A stretch of DNA of 64,000 nt. It comes from Solirubrobacter deserti. Its GTDB lineage: Bacteria > Actinomycetota > Thermoleophilia > Solirubrobacterales > Solirubrobacteraceae. The translations under genes were made by a program, and so were the position numbers. The stretch spans positions 620,001 to 684,000 of the forward strand of contig NZ_QPKJ02000003.1 of assembly GCF_003344625.1 (NCBI RefSeq), written 5' to 3'. This document shows, one piece after another, positions 3,412 through 63,327 of the stretch. Position 1 is the stretch's first letter; the number at the start of each line of letters is the position of its first letter. The notes beneath the pieces were generated by a model that saw only the letters and a program-made list of their open reading frames with translations, did not search any database and had not been told where the DNA came from.

Positions 3412-5664
3412 TCACGCGCCCAGCATGCGCCGCATCAACGCGGCCGAGCCGGCTTTCGACAGCGGCTCGTTCAGGTTCCCGCACTTGGGGGACTGCACGC
3501 AGGACGGGCACCCCGACTCGCACGGGCACTCGCTCACGAGCCGGAAGGCGTCGCCCACCAGGCGCTCGAACGCCTCGTAGCCGCGCCGCGAGATCCCGAT
3601 CCCGCCGGGGTGGCCGTCGTAGATGAAGATCGTCGGCCCGCCCGTCTGCGGGTGGAAGTTCGTCGAGAGCCCGCCGATGTCCCAGCGGTCGCACATCGCC
3701 AGCAGCGGCAGGACCGCGATCTGGGCGTGCTCGGCCGCGTGCAGCGTCCCCACGTCGTCATCTGACAGCTCGTACCAGAGCGCCTGCGTCGCGAACGACG
3801 TCTGCGGGAGGTCCAGAGGAATGAGGTCCATCGCCTCGTGATCGTTCAGCCGCCGCCGCTGGTAGGCCAGCACCTGCTCGCTCACCACCACGCGCCCGAA
3901 GGACAACCGAACGCCGAGCACGGTGCGCGTCGCCAGCACCTCCTCGATCCGCGTGTCGGTCTCGCGCTTGGGCTGCGTGTACCAGTTGCCGTCGAACGGC
4001 CGCACGAACGCGCGCCGGTCCTCGAGCTGCAGGGCCGCGACCTCGAACGACCGCCCGCCGTGCAGGTACACGGCGCCCTGGTGGACCGTCGAGGGCGCCG
4101 GCCCGGCGTCGACCGTGCCGATCACCTCGCCGGTCCCGCCGTCGATCACGGACACGGGATCGAGCCCGGCGGACCGCAGCGACACGTCGCCCGCCGGGTA
4201 CTGGTCCGCGTGCCGGGGAACGAACGTTCCGTCCGGCCGCGCACGCAGCACGCCCTGGCCGACCAGCACCTGCGCGGCCTCCTTCCACTCCGGTCCGAAG
4301 ATCGGCTCGTCCTCGTGCGAGAGCGCGCCCTCGTGCGCGGCGCACACCAGGTGCCCGGCGAACAGCTGCTCGTTGTGGGGATCGAGGATCGCCGCCTCGA
4401 CCGGCCGCTCGAGGAACTCGTCCGGGTGCCGGCAGAAGAACTGGTCGAGCGCGTCCTCACCCGCCACGTATACGGCGAGCCCGCGCCCGCGCCGCCCCGC
4501 GCGCCCCCACATCTGCTTCAGCGACGCCACCGTCCCCGGGAACGTCACGCAGATCGCGGCGTCCAGCGCGCCGATGTCGATGCCGAGCTCCAGCGCGTCC
4601 GTGGCCACCACGCCGATCAGCTCGCCGTCCATCAGCCGCCGCTCCAGCTCGCGCCGCTGCGCGGGCGTGTAGCCCGCGCGGTAGGGCGCGATCCGCTCCG
4701 CGAGCTCCGGGTGGCCGCGCTTGCGCAACTCCACATCGGCGAACTTGGCCATCAGCTCGATGCCCTTGCGCGACTTCATGAACACGATCGTCCGCGCGCC
4801 CTCGATCGCGAGGCTCACGAGCAGGTCCGCGGCCTCGGACAGGGCCGAACGCCGGCGCGCCGTCTCCTCGTCGACCACGGGCGGGTTCCACATCGCGATC
4901 GTGCGCCGCGTGCCGGGTGAGCCGTCGCGATCGACCACCTGCATGCCGTCGAGCCCGGTGAGCCGCGTGGCCAGCTCGCCCGGGTTGGCCACGGTCGCGC
5001 TCGCGAGCAGGAACCGCGGCGCCGTCCCGTAGAACTCGCAGATCCGCCGCAGCCGCCGGATCACGTTCGCGACGTGGGAGCCGAAGACGCCGCGGTACAC
5101 GTGCGCCTCGTCGATCACGACCACCGCCAGCCCGCTGAAGAACCGCTCCCACTGGCGGTGGTTCGGGAGGATGCCGACGTGCAGCATGTCCGGGTTGGTG
5201 AGGATCAGGTTCGCGCGCCGGCGCAGCTCGGCCCGGTGCTCGCGCGGGGTGTCGCCGTCGTAGATCGCCGGCAGCAGCCGCTTGAAGTTGAACGCGTGCA
5301 GCGCCCGCGCCTGGTCCTGTGCGAGCGCCTTGGACGGGTACAGGTACAGCGCCCGCGCCATCGGGGCGGTCGCGAGCGTCTGCAGCGTCGGCAGCTGGAA
5401 GCACAGCGACTTGCCGGACGCCGTGCCCGTGGTGACGATCGTCGGCCCCGCGAACGCGGCGTCCAGCGCCTCGGCCTGGTGGCCCCACAGGAAGTCGACG
5501 CCGCGCCGCTTCAGGGCGGCGACGACGTCCGGGTGCAGATCGGCGGGAATCGGGACCATCGTCCCCTGACGCTCGTGCTGCATCGCCTGCCGCACCAGCC
5601 GGTCGTCGATCCGGCCGGAGCTGAGCAAGCCGTCCCACGGCTCATGATCACGAACGACCCCCAC
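3412..5664 (-). CDS. mrfA: DEAD/DEAH-box helicase with DUF1998, MrfA/Hrq1 type
   Basis: 750 residues. The N-terminal superfamily 2 core has Walker A GTASGKS (80-86) and DEAH (185-188). The helicase C domain carries the ATDALELGIDIGALDAA and WGRAGRRGRG motifs. The C-terminal DUF1998 region ends in a cysteine cluster (C713, C715, C719, C722, C728) that probably binds a metal. This layout matches Bacillus MrfA and yeast Hrq1, 3'-5' helicases involved in repair of mitomycin-type and other crosslink damage. The length is typical. A full set of motifs supports activity; the repair role is inferred from the family. Confidence 0.85.
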   Translation of the reverse strand: MGVVRDHEPWDGLLSSGRIDDRLVRQAMQHERQGTMVPIPADLHPDVVAALKRRGVDFLWGHQAEALDAAFAGPTIVTTGTASGKSLCFQLPTLQTLATAPMARALYLYPSKALAQDQARALHAFNFKRLLPAIYDGDTPREHRAELRRRANLILTNPDMLHVGILPNHRQWERFFSGLAVVVIDEAHVYRGVFGSHVANVIRRLRRICEFYGTAPRFLLASATVANPGELATRLTGLDGMQVVDRDGSPGTRRTIAMWNPPVVDEETARRRSALSEAADLLVSLAIEGARTIVFMKSRKGIELMAKFADVELRKRGHPELAERIAPYRAGYTPAQRRELERRLMDGELIGVVATDALELGIDIGALDAAICVTFPGTVASLKQMWGRAGRRGRGLAVYVAGEDALDQFFCRHPDEFLERPVEAAILDPHNEQLFAGHLVCAAHEGALSHEDEPIFGPEWKEAAQVLVGQGVLRARPDGTFVPRHADQYPAGDVSLRSAGLDPVSVIDGGTGEVIGTVDAGPAPSTVHQGAVYLHGGRSFEVAALQLEDRRAFVRPFDGNWYTQPKRETDTRIEEVLATRTVLGVRLSFGRVVVSEQVLAYQRRRLNDHEAMDLIPLDLPQTSFATQALWYELSDDDVGTLHAAEHAQIAVLPLLAMCDRWDIGGLSTNFHPQTGGPTIFIYDGHPGGIGISRRGYEAFERLVGDAFRLVSECPCESGCPSCVQSPKCGNLNEPLSKAGSAALMRRMLGA

Positions 5665-6274
5665 CCTTCGATCCTAGGCCCGTCTGCCACTGCCGGCCGA
5701 TCGTTTCCAGCAACATGGGGTAAACGATCGCGAGCCGGAACGGTTTGATGGCCGCCAGATAGGCGCGTCCGAACCAGCCCGCTGGCTTGACCAGCACCGC
5801 CATCTGGGCGTTGTGGCCGTCGTCGCTCTCCACCCAGCCGATGTGCAGCAGCCCGTGGACCGTCTTGTTGGCGAGCTCGGCCACCCACTCGTCGCCGGTC
5901 AGGTAGACCGAGTCGAACACCGCTCGCTGCGGCTCGTCGCGGCCCGGCACGGCGGTGATGTCCGGCCCGCGCGGCCCGTCGCGCAGATCGGGCGGGAGCC
6001 GCTCGCGCAGTGACGGCACGCGCCCGTCGGTCCCGCCGCCCTCCTGGTCCCAGCCGAACAGCTTCCCCAGCTGCCAGCGCAGCGCGAACAGCGCCCGGAA
6101 CGCGACCGGGAAGTCGCCAGGCTCGCCACGGGAGACGAACTGCTCGACGAGCCGCGGGAAGTTCTCCTTGCGTCCGGGCGTCGGGAGCGCCCAGACGTCC
6201 TCGAGGTCGAAGTCCGCCGCGAGCGCGTGGATGCGCCACGGGTGGGAGAAGTGCGTGCCGTCGGGAAGCCGCAT
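5648..6274 (-). CDS. DUF2867 family protein
   Basis: 208 residues. The ATG at 6274 is chosen because a strong GGAGGTGA sits just upstream and because the conserved family start (WRIHALAADFDLEDVWALPT) follows shortly after. Other recognisable stretches are HGLLHIGW and the C-terminal FGRAYLAAIKPFRLAIVYP. No catalytic signature is visible, and the family has no settled function. The start codon overlaps that of the divergent TetR gene. Two tandem palindromes just upstream are likely TetR operators, so it is probably the regulator's main target. The C-terminus overlaps the helicase start by 17 bp. Confidence 0.75.
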   Translation of the reverse strand: MRLPDGTHFSHPWRIHALAADFDLEDVWALPTPGRKENFPRLVEQFVSRGEPGDFPVAFRALFALRWQLGKLFGWDQEGGGTDGRVPSLRERLPPDLRDGPRGPDITAVPGRDEPQRAVFDSVYLTGDEWVAELANKTVHGLLHIGWVESDDGHNAQMAVLVKPAGWFGRAYLAAIKPFRLAIVYPMLLETIGRQWQTGLGSKGGGRS

Positions 6275-57856: not shown

Positions 57857-58497
57857 CCGCCGATCTGCAGCGCTTCGAACTGCACCTGGCTGACCTGCGT
57901 GAAGTCCTTGGGCCCGCCGTACCCGGACTGCGCGTCGGCGTGGCAGACGACCCTGACCGTGGTCCACTGGGTCGTCGTGATGTAGCCACGCATCAGTAGG
58001 CGCTGCGGGGTGTCGTCTCCGCCGGTCCACCAGGCTTTGTCGGAGGCCACCTTGTCGCCCCACCCGCCGCCGTTGCCGGTCGGCGCGGCGTAAACCGCGC
58101 AGCTCGCGCCGATCGTGTTCAGGTGATGGGCTTCGGGTCGGTCCGCCCGGGCGCTGACCGTCACCACGTGGTGGGTGTTCGGCGCCAGCGTGAGGATGCC
58201 GACATGCTTGTCGTGCCCTGCGTGCTCGCCGATGAACGCGCCGGGGTGCTCGATGATGCGAGCGAACGACGGGCCGGCGGGGCCGGGTGGCCCGGTCTGG
58301 TTCCAGCTGAGCGGCTTCTCGCCCGGCAGGCAGGAGCGGCCCACCTCCTGCTCGCCGTCCACGATTCGCAGCCTGCCGTCGGCGGTCGTCATGCACGCGG
58401 TGATCGCGCCGTCGGCCGACGGGATCGCCGCGACGGCGCCGCCGGTCAGGCCGAGGGCGAGTACGCCCGCGAGAGCGAGGTGGCGGACGCGGATCAC
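57832..58497 (-). CDS. Secreted protein with a short collagen-like linker
   Basis: 221 residues, GTG start. Signal peptide (HLALAGVLALGLTGGAVA), a Cys-pair segment (ITACMTTADGRLRIV, GRSCLPGEKPLSW), the collagen-like GPPGPAGPS, and a C-terminal beta-rich domain (VGILTLAPNTHHVVTVSARA, SCAVYAAPTG). This 'signal peptide - ACMxxxxGxLRIVD - GPPG' start is common in Gly-repeat surface proteins. It overlaps the upstream secreted-protein gene by 4 bp (GTGA). Function unknown. Confidence 0.72.
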   Translation of the reverse strand: MIRVRHLALAGVLALGLTGGAVAAIPSADGAITACMTTADGRLRIVDGEQEVGRSCLPGEKPLSWNQTGPPGPAGPSFARIIEHPGAFIGEHAGHDKHVGILTLAPNTHHVVTVSARADRPEAHHLNTIGASCAVYAAPTGNGGGWGDKVASDKAWWTGGDDTPQRLLMRGYITTTQWTTVRVVCHADAQSGYGGPKDFTQVSQVQFEALQIGGYSRKVTQ

Positions 58498-58973
58498 GAC
58501 TGCACCTCCACCGAGCCGACCTGGAGGGCCGTCAGCCTGGCGTTCGACAGCGTGAAGTCGCCCTTGCTGGAGATGTCGCCGCCGCACACGAGCTCGAGCG
58601 AGGCGCCGGTGGCGTCCGTGGTCGCGGTGGCCTGCAGCGCCAGCGTGCTGGCGTTGCCGATCCAACTCCCGCTGTCGAGCTTGGTCTGGCTGCCGATGCG
58701 CTTGATGACGAGATCGCACGCCGCCAGCTCCTGCTGCGACGTCTTGCTCATCAGGGTCGCCTTGGCGGAGACGGTGAAGGCGCCGTCGGCCGGCAGCGCG
58801 ATCTTCGCGACGGTCTTGGGCAGCCCGTCGTGCGTGCCGGCCTGGCTGGCGGTGAGGGCCTTGGAGGCGGAGGAGGTTCCGGTGTCCTCGCGCGGCGGGG
58901 CGGCGACCGCGGCGCCGGAGATCCCGACGGCCAGCACGCCGACCAGGGCGAGGGTGGGAAGGCTGATTCGCAT
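58494..58973 (-). CDS. Secreted protein of unknown function, 159 aa
   Basis: Signal peptide (LPTLALVGVLAVGISGAAVA), then a Ser/Thr-rich stretch and a beta-rich domain with two Cys (AACDLVIK, ELVCGGDIS) that could pair. Its C-terminal ARLTALQVGSVEV resembles QFEALQIGGYS of the next protein, so the two mature domains may be related. The genes are coupled by a GTGA overlap and probably act together outside the cell. Confidence 0.68.
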   Translation of the reverse strand: MRISLPTLALVGVLAVGISGAAVAAPPREDTGTSSASKALTASQAGTHDGLPKTVAKIALPADGAFTVSAKATLMSKTSQQELAACDLVIKRIGSQTKLDSGSWIGNASTLALQATATTDATGASLELVCGGDISSKGDFTLSNARLTALQVGSVEVQS

Positions 58974-59068: not shown

Positions 59069-62020
59069 CTACTCGACGAGGTCGAAGCCGCCTGCGAGGA
59101 CGGCGTCCAGGCGGCCCGTCCGCCAGCCGCGGATGGCGTCGCGCACGAGTGGCGTCGGGCGCTCGCGGTAGCGGCGGACGATCGTCGAGCGGCCCTCCTC
59201 CGGCGCGCCGACGACCCGAACGCGCACGCGCCGGCGCTCATAGCCGCCCTTGCCGTCCGGGACCTCCAGCACGTGCATGCCGTCCTCGGGGGCAAGCACC
59301 CGCAGCGCGCCGAAGCCGGAGACGGTCGCTTCGAACGGCTGCTCGGAGACGACCTCGAGCCGCATGCCGCGCTCGTGCGCCCAGGCCCGGTACATGGCGA
59401 CGATCCGCGGCGCGAACTCCGGGTCGCCGTCGACCCTGAGCCCGGCGTCGGCGGGCTCGCCCGCGGCCAGCGCGTCGAGCGCCTCGCCGAGCAGCAGCAG
59501 CCGCTGGGCGGCGCGGCGGACGATCGCGGCCGGCGGCTGCCGCGCACTGCGGACGCGGTTGAGCAGCGACGCGGCGGAGCGCAGGCCGGATTCCATGCGG
59601 TCGCGCAGCTCGATCCCGGCGAGCACGACGCCCCGCCCGTCGTCCTCCCAGAACCCCGGCTCGGCCATCTGCGCCAGCAGCGCGTCCTTGGTCTCGACCT
59701 CGCGCGCCAGCCGCTCGCTGACGTTCGCGAACGTCGCCTCCAGCAGCTCGAGCCCCGGTCCGCCCTCGCGCGCGAGCGTCTTCAGCGTGGTCTCGGCGGG
59801 CGTCGGCACGACCTCCGACGGCGCGTCCGGGTCCTCGAAGGTCACCTTGAGCCCGTCGCGCCCCGCGCGGACGAACAGGAACTGGTCGCCGCTGGGCACG
59901 TCGTGGCCCGCGATGGCCAGCGCGAGCGGCGTCAGGAAGTGGCGCTCGACCGCGCGCTTGAGCGGCCGGGCGCCGAGGTCCGGCGTAAAGCCCTCGCTCA
60001 GCAGGAACTCCAGCGCGGAGTCGTCGAACTCCACCGCCCACTGGCGCGAGCGCAGCCCGCGCCGGGCCAACACGGACTCGAGCTCGGCCGCCAGGATCTC
60101 GCGCATCACGGGCCGCGACAGCGGCCGGAAGACGACCGTGCGATCGATCCGGTTGACGAACTCGCGGCGGAACGTCTTGGTCACCGCCTGCTCGACGCTG
60201 CGCGCGACGAACCCGCCCTGGGCGGGCGAGAACCCGATCCCGGCACCCGTCGGGATCGTGGCCCCCAGATTGGAGGTCATGATGATCACGGCGTGCCGGA
60301 AGTCGGCGGGCGCGCCGTGCGGATCGCTCAGCCGCCCGTCGTCGAACACCTGCAGGAACAGGTCGAAGACGCCGTGGTCGGCCTTCTCGAACTCGTCGAG
60401 CAGGACGACCGAGAACGGCTGCTTGCGGATCGAGGCCACCAGCGACGCGTCCTCGGGCTCGCCGCTGCCCAGCAGCCGCTGCGCGCTGCCGGGGTTCTGG
60501 TACTCGGACAGGTCGATCCGGATCATCCGGTCGCCTGAGCCGAACAGGTACTCGGCCAGCGCCTTGGCGATCTCGGTCTTGCCGGTACCGGTCGGGCCGA
60601 CGAACAGCAGCACGGCGAGCGGCCGCGTCGGGTCCGTCAGCCCCGCCTTGAGCAACGCGATCCGCTCCACCATCAGCTCGACCGCCTCGGGCTGGCCGAC
60701 GACGCGCGCGCTGAAGAAGCGCCGCACCGCGTCCACGTCCAGCCGCGAGCGGTCGTCGAGCATCGCCAGCGGCATGCCGGAGCGTTCAGCGACGCTCTCG
60801 AGCACGTCGTTGATGCCGTACGCGTCGCCGGCGCGCTGGCGCGTCGCCTCCAGCAGCGACAGCACCGACCCGGGCAGCGCGCCCGGCAGGAAGTGGCGCG
60901 CGAGCGCGAGCGCCTCGTCGGCCACCGCCGCGTCGGGCGCCACGGCGCGGACCAGCTCGCGCGCGGCGGACTCGTCCGCGGGCTCGACGCGCAGCGGCTC
61001 GAACGCGGTCCGCACGGCCGGTCGCTCGCGCAGCAGCCGCTCGTAGCCGGCCGGGTCGACCTCGCCCACGATCCGCAGGCGCGCGCCCCCCATCCCCTGC
61101 AGCAGCATGTCGAGGATGCCCGTGCGGCTGTGGCGGTGCGTGCCCGTCCACAGCAGCTCCTCGAAGCGCGGCACGATCCACAGCACCGGCGCATCGTCGA
61201 GCGCCTTGACGATCCGCAGCACCTGTTCCTCGAGCTCGCCGATGAACGTCTGGCCGGCGTTGAGCTCGGTCGCACTCGCCTCGTAGACCGCCCAGCCGCG
61301 CTCGCGCGCGAGGTCCGCGCCGAGCGCGCGCATCCGCACGGTCCGGCCCGAGCCGGGCTCGCCGACGACCAGCACCGAGCGGTCGGCGCCGATCGCTCGC
61401 CGGAGCGCGTCGAGGTCGCGCCCCAAAGCGTCGTCGCCGACGACCCCCGCGTCCAGCGTGCGCGCCGCCTCGCCGCGGTGCAGCCGGCCGGCGCCGCCGA
61501 GGTTCCCGGCCAGCTCCTGCAGCCGCTTGCGGCGCACGAGGTCGGCCCTCACCTGGGGGTCGAGCGCGTCACCGAGCTTGTCCACCAGCGTGAGCAGCTC
61601 GTCGACGCGGTTGTCGCCCGCCGGACTGAGGTCGACCGGCTCGCCGCGGCGCAGCACGAGCGCCCGCAGGTCCGCGAGCGGCGCGGGCTTCAGCCACCCC
61701 TCGCCGACGGCCAGCAGAAGCCGCTGCACGAGCCCGTGACCGGCGCGGCGGTCGAGCGCGCGGAGCAGAAAGCACGCGAACGCGCCGCGCGCGGCCGGGG
61801 CGAGCAGCAGCAGCGAGCCTTCCTCACCGTCGCGCTGCGCGAGCGCCTCGAGCGCGACGCACGCCCGCATCCGCTCGCCGCGCACGAGCGCGAACAGCTC
61901 CTCGTCGCCGGTCGCCGACGCGAGCCGCACGGCCTCCTGGAACTTCGGGTTGAGCAGGAGCGCCGCGGCGCTGCGCTGAGCCTTGGGCAGCGCGCGCAGC
62001 TCCGCGATCAGCTCGTTCAC
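59069..62020 (-). CDS. Clp-type AAA+ ATPase fused to a release-factor-like C-terminus
   Basis: 983 residues. After a helical N-terminus comes a degenerate first ATPase (GEPGSGRT at 220-227 with Arg for Lys; Walker B reads WIVPRFEEL). The second is intact: GPTGTGKT (475-482), VVLLDEFEK (538-546), TSN (582-584), GAR (683-685). The aromatic pore motif (GYVG) is missing; GIGF (594-597) resembles a ClpP-docking loop. Residues from about 745 on resemble peptide-chain release factor 2: coiled-coil with EPGFWEDD, a PCRF domain (MYRAWAHERGMRLEVVSEQP, GALRVLAPEDGMHVLEV) and the final LDAVLAGGFDLV, but no GGQ domain. The start overlaps the M20 stop by 4 bp. Confidence 0.85.
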   Translation of the reverse strand: MNELIAELRALPKAQRSAAALLLNPKFQEAVRLASATGDEELFALVRGERMRACVALEALAQRDGEEGSLLLLAPAARGAFACFLLRALDRRAGHGLVQRLLLAVGEGWLKPAPLADLRALVLRRGEPVDLSPAGDNRVDELLTLVDKLGDALDPQVRADLVRRKRLQELAGNLGGAGRLHRGEAARTLDAGVVGDDALGRDLDALRRAIGADRSVLVVGEPGSGRTVRMRALGADLARERGWAVYEASATELNAGQTFIGELEEQVLRIVKALDDAPVLWIVPRFEELLWTGTHRHSRTGILDMLLQGMGGARLRIVGEVDPAGYERLLRERPAVRTAFEPLRVEPADESAARELVRAVAPDAAVADEALALARHFLPGALPGSVLSLLEATRQRAGDAYGINDVLESVAERSGMPLAMLDDRSRLDVDAVRRFFSARVVGQPEAVELMVERIALLKAGLTDPTRPLAVLLFVGPTGTGKTEIAKALAEYLFGSGDRMIRIDLSEYQNPGSAQRLLGSGEPEDASLVASIRKQPFSVVLLDEFEKADHGVFDLFLQVFDDGRLSDPHGAPADFRHAVIIMTSNLGATIPTGAGIGFSPAQGGFVARSVEQAVTKTFRREFVNRIDRTVVFRPLSRPVMREILAAELESVLARRGLRSRQWAVEFDDSALEFLLSEGFTPDLGARPLKRAVERHFLTPLALAIAGHDVPSGDQFLFVRAGRDGLKVTFEDPDAPSEVVPTPAETTLKTLAREGGPGLELLEATFANVSERLAREVETKDALLAQMAEPGFWEDDGRGVVLAGIELRDRMESGLRSAASLLNRVRSARQPPAAIVRRAAQRLLLLGEALDALAAGEPADAGLRVDGDPEFAPRIVAMYRAWAHERGMRLEVVSEQPFEATVSGFGALRVLAPEDGMHVLEVPDGKGGYERRRVRVRVVGAPEEGRSTIVRRYRERPTPLVRDAIRGWRTGRLDAVLAGGFDLVE

Positions 62021-63327
62021 CGCAGCTTCGCGAGCTCCTCGTAGAGCGCCCGCGCGGCCGCCGCGCCGTGCTCGAGCGCGATGAGCCGGTAGGACTCGTT
62101 GGGCGCGTGCAGCGCGTCGTCCGGGAGGCTGAAGCCGGAGACGATCGTCGGGATGCCGCGGGCGGAGAAGTCAGCCAGGACCGGGATCGTCCCGCCCTCG
62201 CGCACGAGCGCGGGCGCCTTGCCGGTGCTGCGCTCGAACGCTCGCCGCGCCGCCCGCAGGACCGGGTCCTCGGGATCGAACGCGCTCGGGCGCGCCGTGT
62301 CGGCCGAGAACAGCAGCTCCGCGCCCTCGGGCAGCGCCTCGCGCAGCAGGTGCTCGAGGTTGGCGGCGATCTCGTCCGGGTCCTGCCCGCCGACGACCCG
62401 CACCGACAGATCGGCCGACGCGACCGGCACGACGATCGTGCGCGCCTGCCCGCCCTCGATCCGGTGCACGTCCAGCGACGGCTCCGCGGTCGTGCGGACG
62501 TAGAACTCGGCCGCGGCGGTGGCGTCGGCCGGGCGGGCGCCGACGTTGGCCAGCTCGCCCTCGCCGTCGGGCAGCGTCGCCCACGTCTCCACCTCGGCCG
62601 GCGTGGGCGGCCGGATGCCGACGCGCAGCGGCTCGGGCAGCCGGCCGTCGGCGCCTGCGAGCACCGCGCCCAGCGCGCGGTGCAGCGCGTGGAAGGCGTT
62701 CAGCGCCGCGCCACCGTAGATGCCCGAGTGCGCGGTCTGCGTGCCGGTCCGGACCTCGATGTGCGCGAAGACCATGCCGCGCGTGGCGACCGCGAGCGCC
62801 GGCGTGTCGGGGTCGACCATGCCCGCGTCGAACACGACCGCCGCGTCGGCGCCGCGCTCGTCGGCGCGCACCCAGGCGCCGACGTCGTCGGAGCCGGTCT
62901 CCTCGGCGCCCTCGATCAGCACGCGCACGTGCACGCCGAGCTCGTTGGCGCGGGCCAGCTCGCAGGCGACGTGCAGCAGCGGCAGGAAGTTGCCCTTGTC
63001 GTCGGTCGCGCCGCGGGCGTACAGGCGGCCGTCGCGCTCGGTCGGCTCGAACGGGGCCGAGTCCCACAGCGCGAGGTCGCCTGGGTCCTGGACGTCGTAG
63101 TGGCCGTAGATGAGGACGGTCGGCGCGTCCTCGCGGGAGGAGCGCAGCTCGCCGACGACGAGCGGGGCGCCGCCCGCCGTGTCCACCAGCTCGACGGTGC
63201 CGCCCGCGTCCGTCACGCGTTTCGCGGCCCACTCGGCGGCCTCCCGCAGCGCGGCCTCGTCACGCTCGCCGGTGGAGACCGAGGGGATCTTCAGCCACTC
63301 GATGGCCTCGCTCAGCAGGTCAGGCAT
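62017..63327 (-). CDS. M20-family dipeptidase/deacylase
   Basis: 436 residues. Metal-binding and catalytic motifs: LIYGHYDVQDPGD, ARGATDDKGNFLPLL, IEGAEETGSDD, VFDAGMVDPDTPAL, and AHSGIYGGAALNAFHALH for the lid domain. This is the M20A-type (CNDP-like) dipeptidase group. It starts 8 bp inside the end of the carboxylase gene and overlaps the Clp-type gene, so all three are likely one operon. Confidence 0.93.
   Translation of the reverse strand: MPDLLSEAIEWLKIPSVSTGERDEAALREAAEWAAKRVTDAGGTVELVDTAGGAPLVVGELRSSREDAPTVLIYGHYDVQDPGDLALWDSAPFEPTERDGRLYARGATDDKGNFLPLLHVACELARANELGVHVRVLIEGAEETGSDDVGAWVRADERGADAAVVFDAGMVDPDTPALAVATRGMVFAHIEVRTGTQTAHSGIYGGAALNAFHALHRALGAVLAGADGRLPEPLRVGIRPPTPAEVETWATLPDGEGELANVGARPADATAAAEFYVRTTAEPSLDVHRIEGGQARTIVVPVASADLSVRVVGGQDPDEIAANLEHLLREALPEGAELLFSADTARPSAFDPEDPVLRAARRAFERSTGKAPALVREGGTIPVLADFSARGIPTIVSGFSLPDDALHAPNESYRLIALEHGAAAARALYEELAKLR

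Follow-up and report, generated by a model that had tools for sequence, protein, structure and literature searches.

A third group of double-ring Clp proteins in Actinomycetota, ClpI, includes some members with an LGF loop, according to the report that describes it (PMC10149685). Balon, a relative of aeRF1 without the codon-reading and GGQ motifs, is reported to bind the ribosomal A site independently of mRNA, where it was seen together with EF-Tu (PMC10901736). In RF2, SPF and the 2/4 superdomain serve codon recognition, and in the ArfA-RF2 structures domain 1 of RF2 contacts the L11 stalk (PMC5378476). Here, we describe a gene of Solirubrobacter deserti in which a Clp-type ATPase and a reduced RF2 are one polypeptide. 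Our leading interpretation, which we consider somewhat less likely than not, is that the product is a Clp/HSP100 unfoldase, probably a partner of ClpP, in which a stripped copy of RF2 fused to the second ring brings the machine to ribosomes. The gene was found in the window, the whole stretch of 64,000 nucleotides analyzed, which comes from a genome of 7.55 Mb. It is a single open reading frame of 983 amino acids with a GTG start at 59069..62020; the first-pass annotation of the window had these boundaries right and gave no strand, which is minus for the gene and all of its parts described below.

The C-terminal module combines an RF2 domain 1 with a domain 2/4 fold and lacks domain 3. It comprises a domain-1-like three-helix coiled coil with EPGFWEDD (residues 745-855, 59456..59788), a domain-2-like part from which GGxEA, SPF and HTS have been lost (residues 856-940, 59201..59455) and a domain-4-like tail (residues 945-983, VRRYRERPTPLVRD..RGWRTGRLDAVLAGGFD, 59072..59188). 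On the single full-length protein the Pfam match to PCRF is below threshold (E 0.04, 14.2 bits versus a cutoff of 24), and the RF2 claim is therefore weak from one sequence. Homologues place the RF2 likeness proposed in the first-pass annotation on firm ground: PCRF was found in 77 of 79 homologue C-termini (best 9.7e-13) and NCBIfam prfB in 76 (best 1.8e-15), and the AlphaFold model matches RF2 and RF1 by Foldseek and VIA. A profile search of the PDB gave 41 matches, 39 of them RF2 or RF1 chains and the others with E values of 0.92 and 2.9. The family profile also retrieved a true RF2 in one genome (G178, 7.1e-21).

RF2 is favored over RF1 as the source of the module because of the best E values in the PDB profile search (3.4e-15 for RF2 versus 1.5e-9 for RF1), the NCBIfam prfB counts (the two RF1 models match 53 and 41 of the 79 C-termini) and two RF2-type tryptophans. 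The Trp of PxFW is present in 79/79 family members, 15/15 RF2 and 0/9 RF1 sequences, and that of MYxxW in 79/79, 13/15 and 0/9, respectively. Our own profiles, which are small (15 RF2 and 9 RF1 sequences), preferred RF2 in only 58 of the 79 C-termini, with medians of 25.8 versus 19.7 bits and at most 0.4 and 1.1 for shuffled C-termini; by these same small profiles the module of the window protein falls slightly against RF2 (9.3 versus 10.9 for RF1). The fusion modules group together as a single clade (100/100) in a release factor tree that included 29 of the 79, a tree that is indecisive between RF2 and RF1 because three single clades give one unrooted shape.

We compared the 79 C-termini residue by residue with 15 RF2 and 9 RF1 sequences. 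As the first-pass annotation had proposed, the GGQ domain is cut out, which is evident from the structure matches and from the GVH-to-IRxY spacing: 34 in the window protein and 33-63 in the modules measured (73 of 79), versus 125-126 in the 14 RF2 sequences measured. Five GGQ strings occur among the 79 C-termini, none within a GGQ domain. At the corresponding alignment columns, none of the 79 family members has SPF, the GG of the GGxEA motif or the Thr of the HTS motif, each of which is found in 15/15 RF2 sequences. Elsewhere in the C-termini SPF occurs once, GGxEA-like strings twice and HTS never; the SPF string and one GGxEA-like string lie at other places, and the second GGxEA-like string, in locus L106, is close to the alpha5 region without aligning to it. 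The Arg of GVHR and the Arg of DHR, invariant in RF1 and RF2, are replaced across the family. In RF2, the alpha5 tip and HTS serve stop-codon and decoding-center reading. Because the reading elements and the GGQ domain are lost, the module is neither a codon reader of a known type nor a peptide-release enzyme. At the same time, fold residues are kept (the Trp of PxFW, MY..WA, SG, E.G.H, R.Y, the D of KD and the G..D of LDGDLD), and the module is under strong constraint.

The ribosome is the favored target of the RF2 remnant, if only tentatively, because domain 1 and the superdomain keep the RF2 arrangement and Balon still binds the A site. The remnant would serve as a targeting domain that reaches the ribosome without codon reading, with domain 1 placed on the L11 stalk side. 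A somewhat less probable alternative is that the RF2 fold has been reused as a general protein-protein interaction domain that recruits a non-ribosomal substrate or adaptor, with ribosome binding gone. The loss is selective for decoding-side invariants while the core is kept, as expected if the module binds another partner, and new residues are conserved, namely VRRYRE.PSPLVRD..RGWRTGR (with the RRYRE, PSPLVRD and RGWRTGR elements) in the module and DR and R in domain 1. The mean net charge points the same way (about -3 for the module versus -19 for RF2 minus domain 3), and the probability of a new protein partner comes close to that of the ribosome. However, the entire arrangement of domains 1 and 2/4 is preserved throughout a deep clade, beyond the needs of a neutral scaffold, and Balon lost such motifs yet binds the A site (PMC10901736). 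The RF2-derived tail may contact the ribosome in another manner or bind a different partner. The first-pass annotation had further suggested that the protein could recognize stalled ribosomes or nascent chains and hand them to ClpP. The Clp double ring, first ring without catalytic residues, ClpP-type loop and GGQ-less RF2-like tail on which that suggestion drew are all present, but the residues with which RF2 engages the stop codon and decoding center are lost. Moreover, the nascent chain exits the 50S subunit far from the A site, so its handover to ClpP is no natural consequence of A-site docking.

The Clp part of the fusion contains two Clp-type tandem AAA modules, with Pfam matches of the full protein to AAA_2 (2.1e-39) and ClpB_D2-small (4.4e-14). 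The first ring, D1 (residues 176-400, 60821..61495), was delimited by structure matches to ClpC, ClpA and ClpB and by motifs, and these motifs predict that it is hydrolysis-dead. The changes reported in the first-pass annotation were borne out: the Walker A motif is GEPGSGRT, with Lys changed to Arg (61340..61363), and LWIVPRF stands at the Walker B position, where hhhhDE is expected (61163..61183). Among 102 sequences, the Walker A residue is Arg in 27, Lys in 74 and not readable in one, and an acidic-Glu pair at the Walker B position occurs in 0/102. The D1 pore loop, TFIG (61238..61249), keeps its aromatic residue, as do the Y/F/W-x-G loops of 96 of the 102 sequences. The second ring with its small domain, D2 (residues 401-713, 59882..60820; Pfam, with a VIA match to ClpB NBD2), is intact, as had been claimed, with GPTGTGKT (60575..60598), LLDE, the Arg finger and sensor 2 all found. 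Its pore region is rebuilt (60455..60505), and a GYVG-type motif there occurs in 0/102 sequences. Walker A and B are therefore altered in D1 and intact in D2, an aromatic pore loop is found in D1 and none in D2, and the reported absence of the GYVG tyrosine holds for ring 2 alone. We rejected identification as an anti-phage defense ATPase, as the main PADLOC matches, to DolB and PDC-M37B, do not extend beyond the shared AAA_2 core of D2 (residues 428-586).

The GIGF loop of D2 had been described as a retained ClpP-docking loop, and it does occupy the ClpP-loop position (60209..60259). At this position xGF is found in 100 of the 102 sequences and [ILV]GF in 94; residues 593-601 of this loop are the sole stretch of the model with pLDDT below 50. 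The best Foldseek match of the model is a ClpC-ClpP model. ClpA residues 169-749 span model residues 174-731 in the structure match, so the protein has no long ClpB-type M domain. A family-specific beta-hairpin, PxGDQFLFV...VxFxDPDA, and linker (59801..59896) lead from D2 to the RF2 module. At the other end of the protein, residues 1-175 form an all-helical domain (61496..62020; AlphaFold secondary structure and Pfam). Clp_N is absent among the 25 of 33 Pfam families listed for the full protein, and the N-terminal domain of one homologue has a weak likeness to HEAT_2 (P0060, E 4.6e-4, below cutoff). A simple hydropathy criterion assigned a hydrophobic N-terminal helix to 40 of the 67 loci (of 80) with a usable gene; this criterion is rough, and several of the 27 loci scored without the helix, which include Solirubrobacter, fall just below the threshold. 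Many family members therefore look membrane-anchored, whereas the Solirubrobacter members do not.

Partnership with ClpP is suggested by the xGF loop in 100/102 sequences, the Foldseek match to ClpC-ClpP and the presence of ClpP in 22/22 sampled genomes with the fusion gene, which is permissive for a ClpP complex, and in the S. deserti genome itself. The latter has three full-length ClpP matches, two above the family cut-off and one just under, and a fourth ClpP split into two matches (C93:444955, C378:4204, C200:383031 and C36:13206-14365). In the mechanism we propose, ring 1 would hold the substrate by its aromatic loops without hydrolysis, ring 2 would hydrolyze ATP, and the xGF loop would dock ClpP. 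An improbable alternative is a chaperone or hibernation-type factor that associates with the ribosome and works without ClpP. Its ATPase ring would remodel a protein bound to the ribosome or strip it off, and the xGF loop would be vestigial or contact a different partner. Ring 2, the sole ring expected to hydrolyze, lacks the pore tyrosine (0/102), which places ordinary threading in doubt. In ClpC, the C-terminal end after ring 2 is the ClpP-facing end, so an RF2 module that follows ring 2 might crowd ClpP. The N-terminal helix of membrane type, scored in 40 of the 67 loci with a usable gene, also fits a factor of this kind. Yet xGF persists in 100/102 sequences across deep divergence, which speaks for selection on ClpP docking; the loop is absent from ClpB, which does not engage ClpP. 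Returning to the ClpP-partnered reading, its most specific form, possible but less secure than the general one, is that a codon-blind, catalysis-dead RF2 docks an AAA+ protease on the ribosome, a protease that is membrane-anchored in many lineages and divides grip and hydrolysis between its rings. Such a protein could have arisen when a copy of the RF2 gene was joined to the second ring and then lost its GGQ domain and stop-codon reading. The resulting machine, probably membrane-anchored in many species, would remove or degrade a protein located at the ribosome.

A scan of genome contigs confirmed 127 of 214 candidate stretches, of which the best 80 were retained; 74 of these were assigned to 13 phyla and six were left unassigned. 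Most records are metagenome-assembled, with isolates in Solirubrobacter, Lysobacter and Inquilinus. The S. deserti locus among them (L031) is identical to the window protein over 280 C-terminal residues. In a first genome search, three of five genomes of the same genus had a full-length relative at 63-83% identity. Occurrence within the class is sporadic, with matches in 6 of 299 genomes, a count that includes the genome itself, one genome of the same species, the true RF2 of G178 and a 216-aa remnant; the family of a Lysobacter genome had matches in 22 of 198 genomes, that genome counted. One could also suppose that the RF2-Clp chimera is dead or in decay, or that it stems from faulty assembly. 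This idea could draw on the missing catalytic residues of D1, the missing GGQ domain and the related genome G022, which has only the 216-aa module remnant, but it is very improbable, given open frames, strong conservation, identical architecture in the homologues of more than 800 residues examined and orthologues in named Solirubrobacter, Lysobacter and Inquilinus isolates, and recurrence of the architecture rules out an artefact of assembly.

The 216-aa frame of G022 (L148, G022:C72:4000-16000, 5400-6047 minus), from another genus of the same family, has an RF2-like module and no detectable Clp part within 12 kb, and is either what is left of a decayed copy or a module that stands on its own. 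No convincing free-standing module was noticed among the best 120 of 161 profile-search proteins; many of these 120 are pieces labelled ClpC or with D2 domains, and many lie on short contigs. A plasmid search gave 14 records at 1e-60, none spanning 80% of the query, and the annotated ones among the 10 of 14 listed are ClpB or ClpC. Of the 22 sampled genomes that carry the fusion gene, 21 also have a separate prfB above cut-off, which indicates that the fusion is no replacement for RF2. The prfB model also matched a frame of 669-1294 aa in 17 of the 22 (E 3.7e-9 to 4.5e-4), taken on length to be the fusion gene. In Planctomycetota, one RF2 gene (L131, G069:C43:4106-5137) has one in-frame TGA, which we take to be possibly the known RF2 autoregulatory frameshift site.

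In the window, the GTG start of the fusion gene and the TGA stop of an upstream M20 peptidase (dipeptidase-like) gene (62017-63327, minus) share the sequence GTGA. The M20 gene that the first-pass annotation had described as coupled is indeed adjacent here, but of the 80 loci examined only the three from Solirubrobacter have this arrangement. When the neighbor genes of the 80 loci were grouped by similarity, M20 and biotin-carboxylase genes recurred only in L031-L033, and we therefore rejected a conserved operon partner as the key to function. Clusters 3-9, 11-13 and 17-19 represent Lysobacter-type loci (one also with L107), clusters 1, 2 and 10 are, judged from example sequences, opposite-strand or frame-shifted frames over the fusion gene itself, and each of clusters 14-16, 20, 26 and 27 covers 4 to 7 loci, at scattered positions or on different strands. 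No translation-related conserved neighbor was found in the clusters inspected for the 80 loci. Directly downstream in the window are genes for two small proteins with signal-peptide-like starts (58494-58973 and the next frame to about 57832, minus).

NCBI and JGI label such proteins ClpC, AAA family ATPase or PCRF domain-containing protein, and labels of the first two kinds hide their function. We found neither a published description of nor experimental work on a Clp-RF2 fusion in the openly licensed literature, outside which most subscription papers lie. The architecture is thus present in databases by automatic labelling and, as far as our searches reach, appears to be undescribed. The fusion in distant bacterial groups suggests an unrecognized link between the ribosome and protein degradation. 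If our reading is true, this would be, to our knowledge, the first Clp unfoldase with a targeting arm derived from a translation factor, a dedicated ribosome-directed Clp machine, of scattered occurrence in about 13 bacterial phyla, whose single polypeptide combines surveillance of ribosomes with proteolysis. It also represents a second evolutionary route, beside Balon, in which the body of a release factor is kept and its reading and cutting functions are removed. The split between an aromatic pore loop in ring 1 and hydrolysis motifs in ring 2 could provide a test case for the mechanism of double-ring unfoldases.

Among known systems, ClpC and ClpA, class I Clp/HSP100 unfoldases with ClpP as partner, give the best whole-model structural matches and share the two AAA rings, the D2 ATPase motifs and the xGF loop. 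The fusion differs from them in a ring 1 without Walker B, a ring 2 without the pore tyrosine, the absence of Clp_N among the Pfam families listed, the RF2-derived C-terminus and a frequent membrane-type N-terminal helix. ClpI is likewise a double-ring Clp of Actinomycetota with an LGF loop in some members, but its ATPase modules are intact and its M-domain is of ClpC length; a word search of the main text gave no match for "release factor", "Solirubrobacter" or "Thermoleophilia" (PMC10149685), and we rejected membership in ClpI on the basis that the D1 motifs of the fusion are not intact. With RF2 (PrfB), the fusion shares the fold and order of domain 1 and the domain 2/4 superdomain; it lacks GGQ domain 3, SPF, the GGxEA tip and HTS, and it is joined to a Clp ring. 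Balon is not known to have an ATPase ring. As reported, it too is a release-factor relative that lost the codon-reading and GGQ motifs, but it belongs to the archaeo-eukaryotic RF1 family and not to that of RF2 (PMC10901736). The ArfA-RF2 structures likewise employ RF2 without codon reading, with domain 1 on the L11 stalk, but use a full RF2 whose GGQ serves peptide release, and no Clp (PMC5378476).
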